Assembly: GCA_029262155.1 (NCBI GenBank)
Contig: JAJCZW010000150.1
Location: 1 to 47,800, forward strand
DNA: 47,800 bases
From: Gemmatimonadota bacterium
Lineage (GTDB): Bacteria; Gemmatimonadota; Gemmatimonadetes; Gemmatimonadales; GWC2-71-9
Direction of reading: 5' to 3'
Shown here piece by piece: positions 18,775 to 23,919 of this stretch (within the stretch, counting starts at the first letter, position 1; each line of letters opens with the position of its first letter). Below the pieces are notes generated by a model that saw nothing but the letters and a program-made list of their open reading frames with translations, made no database searches and was not told the origin of the DNA. The translations under genes and the position numbers were made by a program.

Positions 18775-19470
18775 ATGCCGGACACCCCCATAGATGAACG
18801 GAGATTCACCGAACGCGAGGTCCGGGAGATCCTGAAACGGGCCGTAGAAAAGGTCCCATCACGCGCTCTGACGAATTCCGAAGGGCTTTCGCTCGCGGCG
18901 CTCCAGGCGATCGGGGAAGAGGTAGGCATCGATCCGGCTCGGATTGAGGGTGCGGCCCGATCCCTTGTCCATGGCAGTGGGCGCGACACAAACACGCTTC
19001 TTGGGGCTCCGAGGATCCTCCATGTTGAAAGGAAGGTCGCTGGGACGTTGACTCCAGACGACACCGCCGACATCCTCTCGCGGATCCGTCGGATCATGGG
19101 CCGTCGAGGCGAGGCGAACGAGATCCACGGAACGCTGGAGTGGACCGCCACGGGGGAGTCCGGCGAACGATCCGTCACACTTTCCTCACGCGACGGTACA
19201 ACCACTATTCAGAGTTCCGCCAACTTGACCAGCGCAGCCCTCGGCATCTACCTCCCAGCGGGGATGATGGGATTTATCGCTTCGTTTGCCGGTCTCGCCA
19301 AGTTCATCAAGAGCGGCACCGAGTTTGGACTTGTGCTGGCCCTGGTCACCCTGCCGGTCCTCTGGCCAGTTCTCCGGTCGATTTTCCGCAGAATTTCGAG
19401 ATCCGAAGCGGCCAAAGCGCAACAGATGGTCGAGGAGTTGGCCAACCTGATCGAGAGACGCGGTAGATGA
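18775..19470 (+). CDS. Two-helix membrane protein of unknown function, first gene of the ECF transporter operon
   Basis: 231 residues. The soluble N-terminal part (1-145) opens with RRFTEREVREILKRAVEK, a helical motif I have the impression recurs in this type of genome. Two membrane helices (about 155-175 and 182-202) and a charged tail follow. An AAGGA element lies eight bases before the ATG. Its stop overlaps the start of the S-component gene by ATGA (19467-19470), so it belongs to the transporter operon and may regulate or assist the transporter. No catalytic motif is visible and the family is unknown to me. Confidence 0.75.
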   Translation: MPDTPIDERRFTEREVREILKRAVEKVPSRALTNSEGLSLAALQAIGEEVGIDPARIEGAARSLVHGSGRDTNTLLGAPRILHVERKVAGTLTPDDTADILSRIRRIMGRRGEANEIHGTLEWTATGESGERSVTLSSRDGTTTIQSSANLTSAALGIYLPAGMMGFIASFAGLAKFIKSGTEFGLVLALVTLPVLWPVLRSIFRRISRSEAAKAQQMVEELANLIERRGR

Positions 19471-20081
19471 CTATGGGCAGCGCCCACTCCGTTCGGCCCG
19501 CCGGCCTAACTCCTCGACATCTCGCCCTCATTCCAGCAACTGTCGCGATCAACCTGGTCATCGGAAGATTGGTAGCCGAAATCGGCCTCCCGGTTTATCT
19601 CGACACCGTGGGAACGATGCTCGCTTCGGCGTTGGGAGGGCTTGGAGTCGGCATCGCAACCGGCCTCCTGAGCCAGCTTCTCGCCGGGCTCCTTTCTGGG
19701 TATCAATGGCTCGCGTTCGCCCCCATTCAGATCATCATTGCCGTTGCGGCCTGGGCTGCAGCACGACATGCCGGATTTCGCCATCTTCGAATGGCGGTGT
19801 TGTGGGGTATCGCCACTGGTATCGCTGCCGGTCTCCTTTCGGCAGTTATCTCCTATCTCCTCTTTAAGGGTGTAACTGCGACTGGCGTCACCGCGCTCGT
19901 ATCGGTATTCCAGGGATTTGGACTGTCTCTCGACCGCGCAGTACTCGGCGCAAGCCTCAGCACGGACCTCGCCGATAAGGCCTTGTCTTTTGCCCTCGTG
20001 GGTTGGCTTCTCCGGTCACTCCCACGCCGGATGCGAGCGCGCTTTCCACTTGCGACTCGCGCGGTCGGCATCTCCTCATGA
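19467..20081 (+). CDS. ECF transporter S component (substrate-binding membrane protein)
   Basis: 204 residues, strongly hydrophobic, with about six membrane helices. The N-terminal INLVIGRLVAEIGLPVYLDT and GTMLASALGGLGVGIATG stretches are typical of S components, which bind a vitamin or cofactor precursor. The overall pattern reminds me of putative S components of unknown specificity such as the CD3073 group. It overlaps its upstream neighbour and the T component by ATGA. No riboswitch was recognised upstream, so the substrate cannot be named. Confidence 0.82.
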   Translation: MTMGSAHSVRPAGLTPRHLALIPATVAINLVIGRLVAEIGLPVYLDTVGTMLASALGGLGVGIATGLLSQLLAGLLSGYQWLAFAPIQIIIAVAAWAAARHAGFRHLRMAVLWGIATGIAAGLLSAVISYLLFKGVTATGVTALVSVFQGFGLSLDRAVLGASLSTDLADKALSFALVGWLLRSLPRRMRARFPLATRAVGISS

Positions 20082-20827
20082 CGCAGGCTGGGCTGCTACA
20101 TCACGCTCACCCGTACACCGTCCCCACTCTCACCCTCACCACCGCCCTCCTTGCCATCCTGCTGCCGGCACCTTTTGGATCAGTGTTCCTCTATGCTGGG
20201 GTGATCGGAGTCGTCCTGCTCGGCGGGGCTCCCTTGGCGGCGCTTCACGCTCTCTGGATCGCCGCACCACTCTGGTTCTTCCTCATCCTCATCCTGGCCG
20301 TTCAAGGTGACCCCGGCCCGGACCCCTTCGCGTTGCTCGGCCTGACGTTCAGTCGAGCAGGGCTCCGCGCTGGCATCGCGCAAGGAGCCCGGCTCGGCGC
20401 CATCATCACCATGACCCTCGCGATGGTGCAAACCCTCACCCCATCTCGCCTGCTTGATTCTGTCGCAGCCGGGGGTGGCCGCCGGCGGTACCTCACGGCC
20501 TTTCTCGCGGTCTCGACGCTCCATACGATCCACCGGTTTCGGCAGCGTGCCAGCGCCATCGTGGCGGCCCAGCGATCCCGCGGCCTTCGGCTCCGGGGGT
20601 CCCCCGTGACGCGCGTGCGTGCGCTGGGCCCCCTCATCGGCCCCCTGCTGCTCGCAGCGTTGATTGAGGTCGACGACCGGGCGGTGGCTCTGGAGACTCG
20701 TGGCGCCACCTCATCCCGCGTGCGGACACCGCTCGATCCACCGCACGACTCTCTGGCCGACCGGTGGATCAGACTCCTCGCCCTCCTCAGCGTCGTTCTG
20801 CTGTTCTTCTGGCGGATCTTCCGATGA
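20078..20827 (+). CDS. ECF transporter transmembrane (T) component
   Basis: 249 residues, with four or five membrane helices in the first half and near the C-terminus. The two coupling-helix motifs of EcfT are recognisable as SRG (167-169, in AQRSRGLR) and TRG (207-209, in LETRGAT), variants of the usual ARG. It would connect the S component to the two ATPases. The ATG at 20078 shares ATGA with the S-gene stop, and its stop overlaps the first ATPase gene. Confidence 0.88.
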   Translation: MTQAGLLHHAHPYTVPTLTLTTALLAILLPAPFGSVFLYAGVIGVVLLGGAPLAALHALWIAAPLWFFLILILAVQGDPGPDPFALLGLTFSRAGLRAGIAQGARLGAIITMTLAMVQTLTPSRLLDSVAAGGGRRRYLTAFLAVSTLHTIHRFRQRASAIVAAQRSRGLRLRGSPVTRVRALGPLIGPLLLAALIEVDDRAVALETRGATSSRVRTPLDPPHDSLADRWIRLLALLSVVLLFFWRIFR

Positions 20828-21660
20828 AGACCATCTGTTTCGACGCGGTTACCTATCGCTACCCTGATGCGCCAGCACCAGCCATTCGCGGAATAACATT
20901 TGATCTTGAGCCGGGTGAACTGTCCTGGTTCTTTGGTGCGTCCGGTGCCGGGGCCAGCACGATCCTCGCCCTGATCGCCGGGGTGGCCCCTCGCCACCTT
21001 GGGGGCGTCGTCGCCGGACGGATTCGAACCTTAGGGGTCGACCCCGCATCCTCCGATCACACTCACGGGCGCACCGCTTTCCTCCTCCCTGAACCAAGAG
21101 TCCAACTCTCAGGGGTGGCAGCCAACGTGTGGGAAGAGGTCGCCTATACTCCCGCGAATCTCGGATGGGCTCCCAGCCGCATTCGTCAGCAGGTGGACGA
21201 CGTGCTGGTTCGGATGGACCTCGTTGCGCTGACCTATCGTGACCCTGCCACCCTCAGTGGTGGAGAGACGCAACGTGTGGTCCTCGCCGCTTTGGCAGCG
21301 ACCCAACCCGATCTCTGGCTTCTCGACGAGCCCACCACCGCACTCGATGGCGCAGGCCGCGCACAGCTCGCCTCCCTTCTACGATACGAAGCCCAGCGGG
21401 GGGCAGCAGTCATTATAGCCAGCGAGGACGCCGACCTCTTCTGTACCCTAGCCGACCGTTGTCTCCTGCTGCACCGCGGACGGGTCCTTGCCGACGGACC
21501 CCCAAAGAGCATTCTCCAGAGCGAGCAAGTGTGGGAATGTGGAGCCGGAAGCACCTCGGTCGCCACGCTGGCCCGGGAGGTCCGCTACCATCCCCCGCAC
21601 ACCCGACCCAACACCACCCCGGTGACCGAAGCCGAGGCACTCGCAGTGTGGCGTCGATGA
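20824..21660 (+). CDS. ECF transporter ATPase subunit with degenerate Walker A and H-loop
   Basis: 278 residues with the ABC ATPase fold. The P-loop reads GASGAGAST (38-46): Ala44 replaces the ATP-binding Lys (codon GCC). The Q-loop Gln is replaced (LPEPRVQ, about 88-94) and the switch His is Glu201 (ASED). By contrast the signature LSGGE (144-148) and Walker B LLDEP (166-170) are intact. The frame is open and the rest is well conserved, so it is not a decayed gene. It probably pairs with the ATPase encoded next, giving its signature motif to the partner's ATP site. ATGA overlaps join it to both neighbours. Confidence 0.88.
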   Translation: MKTICFDAVTYRYPDAPAPAIRGITFDLEPGELSWFFGASGAGASTILALIAGVAPRHLGGVVAGRIRTLGVDPASSDHTHGRTAFLLPEPRVQLSGVAANVWEEVAYTPANLGWAPSRIRQQVDDVLVRMDLVALTYRDPATLSGGETQRVVLAALAATQPDLWLLDEPTTALDGAGRAQLASLLRYEAQRGAAVIIASEDADLFCTLADRCLLLHRGRVLADGPPKSILQSEQVWECGAGSTSVATLAREVRYHPPHTRPNTTPVTEAEALAVWRR

Positions 21661-22469
21661 CCAATGCGGCGCTCGCCTTCCGGAATGTGTCCTTCGGGTA
21701 CACCCGACACACCCCGCTGTTACAGGATCTTTCGTTCACGATTGCGGCAGGAGAAGCTGTCGGACTGATCGGACCGAACGGGGCCGGTAAAACGACCATC
21801 ACACGTCTTGCGATGGCCCTGCTCCAGCCTTCGCAGGGAGTCGTTACCACGGTGGGTCAAGAGACCCGGGACCGGGTACCTGAGCAATTTGCAAAGGACG
21901 TGGGATATCTCTTCCAGCATCCTGAGTCGCAGCTCTTCGCTCGAACGGTCGTGGCGGAGGTCGGCTTTGGGCTCCGGCAGCTCGGTATCCCCGAGCAAGA
22001 GTGTGCCGCCAGGATCCAGTCCATCTTGGAGCTGGTGGGGCTCGACGATGTCGCCTCCGAGCACCCCTATGACTTGCCAGTCCCACTGCGACGCATGGTG
22101 GCGTTCGCAACGGCTCTCGTGTCGAAACCGACCCTACTGATTCTCGACGAACCATCGGCGGGACTCGACCGCCATCTCCGTGGCGTGGTCCATCGGGTTC
22201 TCCGAGACCACGTCGGTGGTGGAGGAAGTATTCTCGCCGTCACCCACGACCCTCTCTTTGCCGCCGAGGTGCTCCATCGGGTCCTTCCGCTGAGGTCGGG
22301 GCATCTCAGTTCGTCGCAGCCGATTGCGTCATTGTGGGCCGATCAAGCGACCCTTCAGATGACGCACCCGCTGGCGGGAATCGTCCGGGAACTGGCTTTG
22401 GATCCGCCGGATTGGCGGCTCCCCACCCTGGCGACCGCCGTCGAGCAGTTTGTGCACAGATCTTGCTAA
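21657..22469 (+). CDS. ECF transporter ATPase subunit with degenerate signature motif
   Basis: 270 residues. Walker A (GPNGAGKTT, Lys45), the Q-loop (FQHPESQLF, Gln87), Walker B (LLILDEPSAGLD, Glu165) and the switch His (VTHD, His197) are intact. The signature that should read LSGGQ is LPVPL (140-144). Its own ATP-binding half is therefore complete, but it cannot serve the partner's half normally. With the preceding subunit it should make a dimer with one working ATP site. The ATG at 21657 overlaps the previous stop by ATGA. Confidence 0.9.
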   Translation: MTNAALAFRNVSFGYTRHTPLLQDLSFTIAAGEAVGLIGPNGAGKTTITRLAMALLQPSQGVVTTVGQETRDRVPEQFAKDVGYLFQHPESQLFARTVVAEVGFGLRQLGIPEQECAARIQSILELVGLDDVASEHPYDLPVPLRRMVAFATALVSKPTLLILDEPSAGLDRHLRGVVHRVLRDHVGGGGSILAVTHDPLFAAEVLHRVLPLRSGHLSSSQPIASLWADQATLQMTHPLAGIVRELALDPPDWRLPTLATAVEQFVHRSC

Positions 22470-22479
22470 GTTACAGCCT

Positions 22480-23919
22480 ATGGGAATGACACCGCTTGCC
22501 GTCGCGGATTTGGCCCTCTTGGTCCATCTAGTCCGCCATGATGTCGATAACAAGGTCGCACAGAGAACGGTTGCCAATCGGCTATGCGCGTATCTCGCCG
22601 ACAGTGGGCTCGCGGTAGAAGCGCAAGTTGGGGCGCTCTGGGTCAATGGCGAGATCATCCATCCGGATACACCCGGCGCCACGGCACTCACCGACTCCAT
22701 GTTGGTGCACGATGTTGGGCGATTAGAGTTCCCACCCAACACGACAGCCGCCACCGTTCTCTCCCTTGCCGATTCGCTCGGCGTCCCTCCAGGCACATAC
22801 TCGACCTTTAGCGCCTTGCTGCACACCTTGGATCCAGTCGTACAGCAGGCCATTCGGATTGAATCGAGTGCAGCAGGAATCGTCGTGCACGAACCGGAGG
22901 ATAAACCACTACTCCAAACTCCGAGAGACGTCTCCACCGCAGATGCCGAGATGCTGGGTGGTGTAATCCTCCCAGACACGAACCTCCCGGAATTCAGGAA
23001 ACCGCTTGAAGAGCTTGTTGAGCGGGGTCGCCTGGCAACCTCCACAGAGAACTGGGATGAGGCCCTCACGATCGGGCTCGGCATCGTCGATCTCTTGGTA
23101 GCGGCCCCGACCCAACCGTTCCGTCAGAGCTGCCGACTGGCCCTTCGACGCCTTATCACGGGACCGGCACTTGATGCCGTGGCGCGGGCCACCGGAGTGG
23201 GGTCCCATCGGCGTGAGGCGACCACACTTCTTCGGCATGTCGGCGGAGACGCCACAGAGGTGTTGATGGACCTGTTGGTCCAGACCGAGGGTATGACTGA
23301 ACGGCGGGGATACTACAGTGCACTGACCAGCATGACCGAAAACGCCGGAATCATCATCCACCATCTCCACCACGACACCTGGTATGTGGTACGAAACGCA
23401 GCCGATTTGTGTGGAGACATGGACCTGGTCGAAGCGATTCCGGAGCTGGCCCGACGGGCACACCACGAGGACGAGCGGGTTCGCCGGGCGATTGCTGGGG
23501 CTTTGGCCAAACTCGGGACCTCCGGTGCGATGGAGCCCATACGCAATATACTGCGCGACGCCTCGGCCTCGGTGAGACTCGAAGCGCTCATGCACCTCGA
23601 TGGACGACGCCGGGGGCGGGCCCTGGCCATGATTCTGGCCGCCCTCCTCGAACGCGAAGAGCATCCGGATGTTCGTCGGGAGATGTTGCGGGCGCTCGGC
23701 CGTATTGGCACCACCGATGCGGTGCAAGCCATCCTCCGGGCGGCCCAACCGGAGGCGAAACTCTTCCGGGGACGACAGCGCGGAGAGCGACTCGCAGCGA
23801 TTGAGGCCCTCACCCTCGCAGGAGGGGCCGCTGCCCCCGCCCTGCGCGGGCTCCTCGACGATAGTGACTCGAAGGTCCGGAAGGCAGTCGAGCACGCCCT
23901 AACAGTTGTCTCAGACTAA
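22480..23919 (+). CDS. Cytoplasmic HEAT-repeat protein
   Basis: 479 residues, no signal peptide or membrane helix. The first third is of unknown fold (about 1-190). The rest is alpha-helical and contains several HEAT-like repeats, clearest from about 310 to 475 (RRAIAGALAKLG, REMLRALGRIG, ERLAAIEALTLAGG, KVRKAVEHAL). HEAT arrays bind partner proteins. It starts ten bases after the ECF ATPase stop, so it may be co-transcribed, but a link to transport is not shown. The ribosome site is weak; the ATG at 22486 is an alternative start. Confidence 0.82.
   Translation: MGMTPLAVADLALLVHLVRHDVDNKVAQRTVANRLCAYLADSGLAVEAQVGALWVNGEIIHPDTPGATALTDSMLVHDVGRLEFPPNTTAATVLSLADSLGVPPGTYSTFSALLHTLDPVVQQAIRIESSAAGIVVHEPEDKPLLQTPRDVSTADAEMLGGVILPDTNLPEFRKPLEELVERGRLATSTENWDEALTIGLGIVDLLVAAPTQPFRQSCRLALRRLITGPALDAVARATGVGSHRREATTLLRHVGGDATEVLMDLLVQTEGMTERRGYYSALTSMTENAGIIIHHLHHDTWYVVRNAADLCGDMDLVEAIPELARRAHHEDERVRRAIAGALAKLGTSGAMEPIRNILRDASASVRLEALMHLDGRRRGRALAMILAALLEREEHPDVRREMLRALGRIGTTDAVQAILRAAQPEAKLFRGRQRGERLAAIEALTLAGGAAAPALRGLLDDSDSKVRKAVEHALTVVSD

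Follow-up and report, generated by a model that had tools for sequence, protein, structure and literature searches.

How might an importer be powered if each of its two ATPases lacks motifs that the other has kept? The window (by which we mean the whole stretch of DNA that was analyzed, 47,800 nucleotides) contains such a pair in an ECF importer operon, S-T-A1-A2, at 19467-22469 on the + strand. We propose that these genes encode a dedicated ECF importer whose motor would be an obligate heterodimer of A1 and A2, in which one ATP site would match the consensus and the other would be degenerate, and we put the probability of this at roughly 85%. The proposal rests on sequence anatomy, conservation, gene order, gene fusions, and selection. 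From these we infer the geometry of the heterodimer at its sites, hydrolysis at one site, the nucleotide state of the other, and the coupling to transport.

An ECF operon with two unequal ATPases

The genes of the operon, and the gene behind it, are:

19467..20081, + strand: S component (substrate-binding membrane subunit; NF045596, PF12822), which precedes T-A1-A2 in relatives too
20078..20827, + strand: T component (EcfT/CbiQ-like; PF02361), start overlapping the stop of S by ATGA
20824..21660, + strand: ATPase A1 (PF00005), Walker A, Q-loop, and H-loop degenerate, signature intact, start overlapping the stop of T (ATGA)
21657..22469, + strand: ATPase A2 (PF00005), Walker A, Q-loop, Walker B, and H-loop intact, signature degenerate, start overlapping the stop of A1 (ATGA)
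22480..23919, + strand: HEAT-repeat protein (PF13646, E = 1.7e-22), ten bases after A2

There are thus ATGA overlaps at three junctions (S/T, T/A1, and A1/A2), and both ATPase genes are open frames. The operon appears to encode an ECF-type ABC importer, as it combines a T component of the CbiQ/EcfT family, a membrane S component, and two ATPases of the EcfA/CbiO group. The match of T to PF02361 (CbiQ) has E = 3.7e-15 and 56.6 bits, above the gathering cut-off of 25. Both ATPases exceed the cut-off of PF00005 (E = 5.4e-20 for A1 and 1.9e-27 for A2), and their top NCBIfam matches are TIGR04520 (ECF_ATPase_1) for A1 and TIGR04521 (ECF_ATPase_2) for A2, each under its equivalog cut-off. A membrane S component takes the place of a soluble binding protein, and it adjoins T in relatives as well. 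Its best curated family is NF045596, the CD3073-family S component (E = 2.7e-24), and since it scores 85.8 bits against a curated cut-off of 180, it is a relative of that family rather than a member; its match to PF12822 (E = 0.001) is also under the cut-off. We searched for literature on CD3073 and found nothing. Finally, the Q-helix motif (an acidic residue, Gln, and a hydrophobic residue after the Q-loop; PMC6828968) is PESQLF in A2, while A1 has the Gln (VQL) and lacks the acidic residue at its usual place.

The catalytic motifs were read from the sequence and, for the Q-loop and switch position of A1, from alignment as well:

20935..20961, + strand: A1 Walker A, GASGAGAST, with Ala (GCC, 20953-20955) for Lys
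21073..21105, + strand: A1 Q-loop, TAFLLPEPRVQ (LLPEP), with Pro (21088-21090) for Gln
21253..21267, + strand: A1 signature, LSGGE, intact; A1's half of the putative complete site
21313..21330, + strand: A1 Walker B, LWLLDE (LLDEP), intact
21424..21426, + strand: A1 switch position (ASED), with Glu for His
21771..21797, + strand: A2 Walker A, GPNGAGKTT, intact
21915..21917, + strand: A2 Q-loop Gln (FQHPE), intact
22074..22088, + strand: A2 signature position, LPVPL (DLPVPLRRM) instead of LSGGQ
22134..22151, + strand: A2 Walker B, LLILDE (LILDEP), intact
22245..22247, + strand: A2 switch His (CAC; VTHD), intact

A preliminary description of this DNA had listed the same features, and every detail was right: A1 is without the Walker A Lys, the Q-loop Gln, and the switch His and keeps LSGGE and Walker B, whereas A2 keeps Walker A, the Q-loop, Walker B, and the His and has LPVPL for LSGGQ. 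It had argued from this that one composite site (site 1) is complete and that the other (site 2) is non-consensus on both faces. The motifs agree with that prediction, and the residue pattern is conserved in 106 operons (see below). One composite site thus departs from the consensus on both of its faces, and the other conforms to it on both.

In our proposal, A2 would contribute its Walker A, Q-loop, Walker B Glu, and switch His to the consensus site, which the LSGGE of A1 would close and which would be the sole site of ATP hydrolysis. The P-loop of A1, with no Lys, His, or Q-loop Gln to support it, would lie opposite LPVPL of A2, and no hydrolysis would be expected there. In each cycle, hydrolysis of a single ATP would make the dimer open and close and would thereby drive the toppling and release of the S component.

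The asymmetry recurs in relatives

Other ABC proteins in the same genome do not share these defects. We read 19 other ABC domains individually; none of them has lost the Walker A Lys or the switch His, and their signatures are LSxG or the one-letter variant YSHG. The defects of A1 and A2 are therefore beyond what chance would give. Nor do we think that they are assembly or sequencing errors, even though the draft genome consists of 259 contigs. Another 41 genomes of the order have substitutions at the same positions, and these stay in frame, with Ala, Thr, Cys, or Ser where the Lys would be, so we consider errors extremely improbable, as the preliminary description had expected.

Within the order, 43 of 288 genomes have a close match to A1, and when we searched the phylum for the S family, 45 of 395 genomes had it. 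The named relatives carry the labels Gemmatimonadetes, Gemmatimonadales, and Gemmatimonadaceae. In the Gemmatimonadota operons that we retrieved, the genes run S-T-A1-A2, and the HEAT gene follows in most of them. All 42 operons of the order that lack the A1 Lys (including the window's) have the identical pair of defects, and we rejected the idea that the pair is an oddity of one genome. In families f1 and f3, the Lys of A1 is replaced by Ala, Thr, Cys, or Ser, its Q-loop Gln is replaced by Pro, Ala, or Ser, and its His is lost, while A2 has lost LSGG throughout; the Walker B Glu of A1 has also become Asp in f3. In family f2 and one genome of family f5, A1 has kept the Lys and lost the Q-loop Gln, and A2 is degenerate too.

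To look more widely, we collected relatives mainly by their S subunit, without regard to the ATPases. In a scan with an alignment of S subunits, using one genome per species, we confirmed 576 relatives of S and obtained 80 loci, spread over many phyla; most of these loci have the gene order S-T-A1-A2. With the Gemmatimonadota, we tabulated 120 rows, some of them duplicated between collections, which left 106 non-redundant operons. In A2, the Walker A Lys, the Q-loop Gln, the Walker B Glu, and the His are each present in 106 of 106, and LSGG is absent from every one. In A1, the Ser and the last Gly of the signature are invariant (106/106), while the Lys is lost in 42/106, the Q-loop Gln in 59/106, the catalytic Glu in 11/106, and the His in 83 of the 105 that could be scored. 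Among the relatives found, there was no operon in which a degenerate A1 was paired with a non-degenerate A2 signature. The preliminary description had asked whether loss of Lys and His in one chain would go along with loss of LSGGQ in the other, which it does across species, and whether homologues exist with both chains intact, of which we found none: every homologous operon that we found has an A2 without LSGG.

It appears, then, that loss of the A2 signature is common to the whole S-T-A1-A2 subfamily and that the asymmetry is not peculiar to the window's genome. The second site varies more. In about 20 operons, A1 retains the Lys, the Glu, and the His, and the only defect in site 2 is the A2 signature; site 2 might retain some activity in these. 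The A2 signature in Enterobacterales is mostly LHAGQ, which retains the last Gly and the Gln. Decay goes furthest in Gemmatimonadales, where the loss is nearly complete, and in Dyadobacter, where A1 is shortened.

Loss of the A1 Lys appears to be a later step, within Gemmatimonadales. On a quick tree (unrooted and with long branches, so that counts of changes are only a guide), loss of the Lys needs one change, which marks the 42 Gemmatimonadales rows, and losses of the Q-loop Gln, the Glu, and the His need 5, 4, and 7. The tree leaves out rows L112, L148, L170, L178, and L183, as well as L048, a row at a contig edge. Because two of these have Leu (Corynebacterium, L183) and Arg (Ardenticatenales, L170) in place of the Lys, it was probably replaced more than once. 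The distribution suggests that the A2 signature was lost first, then the His and Q-loop Gln of A1, and then the Lys. Since the tree is unrooted, this order takes intact motifs, the usual state of ABC proteins, as the starting point.

Some individual operons are also worth describing. In Corynebacterium senegalense (L183:8202-9452), the Walker A of A1 is GDSGSGLSLL, with Leu for Lys, and the degenerate A2 signature is LSARD. A plasmid of Haladaptatus halobius (L191:7413-9158) has an asymmetric operon with fused ECF ATPases and no A2 signature, and the Walker B of its A1 is LQQP, with Gln for both acidic residues (Asp-Glu). In Dyadobacter bucti (L178:8296-9447), one frame of 384 residues encodes a shortened A1 joined to a full-length A2; this A1 starts at the P-loop, so it has no N-terminal strands, and it has no switch His and has DN at Walker B, with LSGGE kept. 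Complete E. coli genomes contain nothing that closely matches the DNA of the Citrobacter operon, although records labeled E. coli in a plasmid collection carry a relative of S.

A proposed heterodimer with one complete site

Neither homodimer would have a complete ATP site, because an A1 homodimer has no Lys and an A2 homodimer has no signature. Only the A1/A2 heterodimer should be able to build a complete site, and it should build only one. A1 and A2 are also fused in one frame in genus g34 of the Gemmatimonadota (8 of 9 genomes), in family f2, in Chloroflexota, Synergistota, and Haladaptatus, and in others. We modeled the fused chain of L109 with AlphaFold (from 14 fused sequences; pLDDT 89, pTM 0.88). 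Among solved structures, the model is most similar to DppD of ATP-bound DppABCD, a chain with two NBDs (TM-score 0.75, rmsd 4.5). The model fits a head-to-tail NBD dimer, from which we infer the geometry of the sites.

Some ECF transporters do use an ATPase homodimer (PMC6828968), so A1 and A2 could in principle belong to separate homodimeric transporters, which the preliminary description had named as a reason to abandon its reading. Given the natural fusions, the overlapping genes, the conserved order S-T-A1-A2, and the lack of a complete site in either homodimer, we think that this is very unlikely.

As controls, we read canonical pairs of ECF ATPases (L193-L198) from some of the genomes in which the asymmetric operon or its S subunit occurs, and both chains are intact in these pairs. 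A plasmid ECF operon from Klebsiella (L192:3190-5750), which adjoins an allantoinase gene, has an intact A1 and a mildly altered A2 signature (LSRGE).

Having lost several catalytic residues, A1 might instead be decaying to a pseudogene, with the importer either dead or driven by another ATPase. We doubt this strongly. A1 is under purifying selection: its dN/dS is 0.14-0.22 (six close pairs), similar to those of T and A2. Its frame is intact in about 100 operons, and the Ser and last Gly of its signature do not vary. That the pattern recurs in about 100 relatives from many phyla makes it look like a feature of the design rather than damage to a gene.

What the degenerate site might do

If site 2 does not hydrolyze ATP, then why is it there? 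Its pocket would still have the shape to take a nucleotide, with the A-loop Tyr, the glycines of the P-loop, the Ser/Thr for Mg2+, and the Walker B Asp. In the clade that lacks the Lys, the A-loop Tyr is kept in 41 of 42 A1 proteins (the other has Trp), and the Ser/Thr, the Walker B Asp, and the D-loop Asp are each kept in 42 of 42. The P-loop glycines are kept too. Most likely the degenerate site is a hinge or a scaffold, perhaps with an unhydrolyzed nucleotide held in it.

Alternatively, the site could be an empty leftover, with A1 kept just to supply LSGGE and to partner T structurally and with a P-loop that no longer binds nucleotide. The motor would still run on one site, and the two readings differ solely in the state of the second. 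Loss of the Lys, His, and Q-loop Gln from A1 in the window's clade would fit with this, as would the A-loop aromatic residue of A1, which is often missing outside that clade, and the Dyadobacter A1, which is shortened so that it begins at the P-loop and is fused to A2. On the other hand, what A1 of the Lys-less clade retains exceeds the apparent needs of a scaffold. An empty site seems to us a serious possibility, at somewhat less than even odds. Because the Lys-less A1 keeps the A-loop Tyr, the glycines, the Ser/Thr, and both Asp, we favor a hinge that holds a nucleotide over a mere scaffold.

Neighboring genes and the substrate

At 22 of the 80 loci from the scan, the DNA that we fetched includes a relative of nucleoside hydrolase, PfkB sugar kinase, or nucleoside phosphorylase. 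In Actinomycetota, such genes are often directly upstream of S, and the operon of Haladaptatus halobius has nucleoside hydrolase genes on both sides. So nucleosides are a reasonable guess for the substrate of the operons with these neighbors. This guess is limited to loci in other phyla: the sampled loci in Gemmatimonadota have a divergent M28-PDZ peptidase upstream, an M42 aminopeptidase downstream, and a HEAT-repeat protein, whose gene is a conserved downstream neighbor in many Gemmatimonadales loci (among them L118, L104, and L070, besides the operon in the window). In Enterococcus and Inconstantimicrobium (L187 and L181), a related S gene adjoins a nucleoside hydrolase and has no T or A genes nearby; it is probably served by the shared ECF module, the ATPases of which are intact in those genomes. 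We considered the name QrtTUVW, which belongs to a predicted transporter of queuosine precursors (PMC6593275), for this family and dropped it: nothing links QrtTUVW to the S-T-A1-A2 sequences.

Comparison with known systems

Like canonical group II ECF transporters (EcfA/EcfA'/EcfT, such as ECF-FolT2 and ECF-CbrT of Lactobacillus delbrueckii), the importer in the window would have an S component, one T component, and two different homologous ATPases. The canonical pairs that we read have all of the motifs in both ATPases, and in the window's operon site 2 is degenerate. In the canonical module of L. delbrueckii, mutating the Walker B Glu of either ATPase abolishes both ATPase activity and folate transport (PMC10368641). 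This implies that one active site is not necessarily enough for an ECF module, and because both catalytic Glu are needed there, the S-T-A1-A2 subfamily must have departed from that scheme if our proposal is correct. We think it likely that this is a widespread ECF subfamily, found in Bacteria and at least one haloarchaeon, with a single hydrolyzing site, graded decay of the second, and one ATP sufficing per cycle. If so, then one ATP would be enough for toppling and release, unlike in L. delbrueckii.

In exporters such as TAP, CFTR, MRP1, and Pdr5, much work has been done on degenerate ATP sites. A naturally one-site ECF motor would make it possible to test how many ATP are needed to expel and reload the S component, and also what a degenerate site is for. 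The members of the S-T-A1-A2 family form a natural series: at one end only the A2 signature is missing, and at the other nearly all of the catalytic residues of site 2 are gone. A review of type I exporters, in which the term ECF is absent, considers it unclear why degenerate sites persist (PMC7756269). In the open-access literature that we searched, which mostly does not include subscription journals, no paper describes an ECF transporter with a degenerate site; this does not by itself establish that the design is new. The preliminary description, which knew of no ECF-type vitamin importer built this way, holds up to that extent; “vitamin” is unproven, and gene neighbors in other phyla suggest nucleosides. 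In short, this would be an ECF importer that follows a known logic, that of ABC proteins with one degenerate site, for which we found no ECF precedent in the open-access literature searched.

The preliminary description had compared that logic to TAP, CFTR, and TM287/288. These proteins, along with TmrAB and MRP1, do combine one consensus and one degenerate composite site within a heterodimer or a full transporter. However, they have exporter-type folds, and fewer of their motifs are broken: two or three are broken in ABCG5/G8, CFTR, and TM287/288, as compared to all in Pdr5 (PMC6533308). The one-site logic stands, and the nearest functional parallel is Pdr5/Cdr1 (fungal PDR proteins of the ABCG type) rather than CFTR or TM287/288. 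Like the window's operon, Pdr5/Cdr1 combine an NBD in which Walker A and further motifs are broken with an NBD without a signature (PMC6533308, PMC7756269), and all or nearly all of the motifs of one site are altered. The Walker A Lys of Pdr5 is replaced by Cys (PMC7756269, PMC6533308), and the same Cys is found in 9 of the relatives studied here. Pdr5 exports drugs and is a single polypeptide (NBD-TMD-NBD-TMD), whereas the ECF importer has separate genes for S, T, A1, and A2. Pdr5 has also lost the Walker B Glu, which most A1 proteins retain (those of family f3 have Asp). As the single polypeptide that defines PDR/ABCG proteins is absent here, the likeness to Pdr5 is one of logic only.
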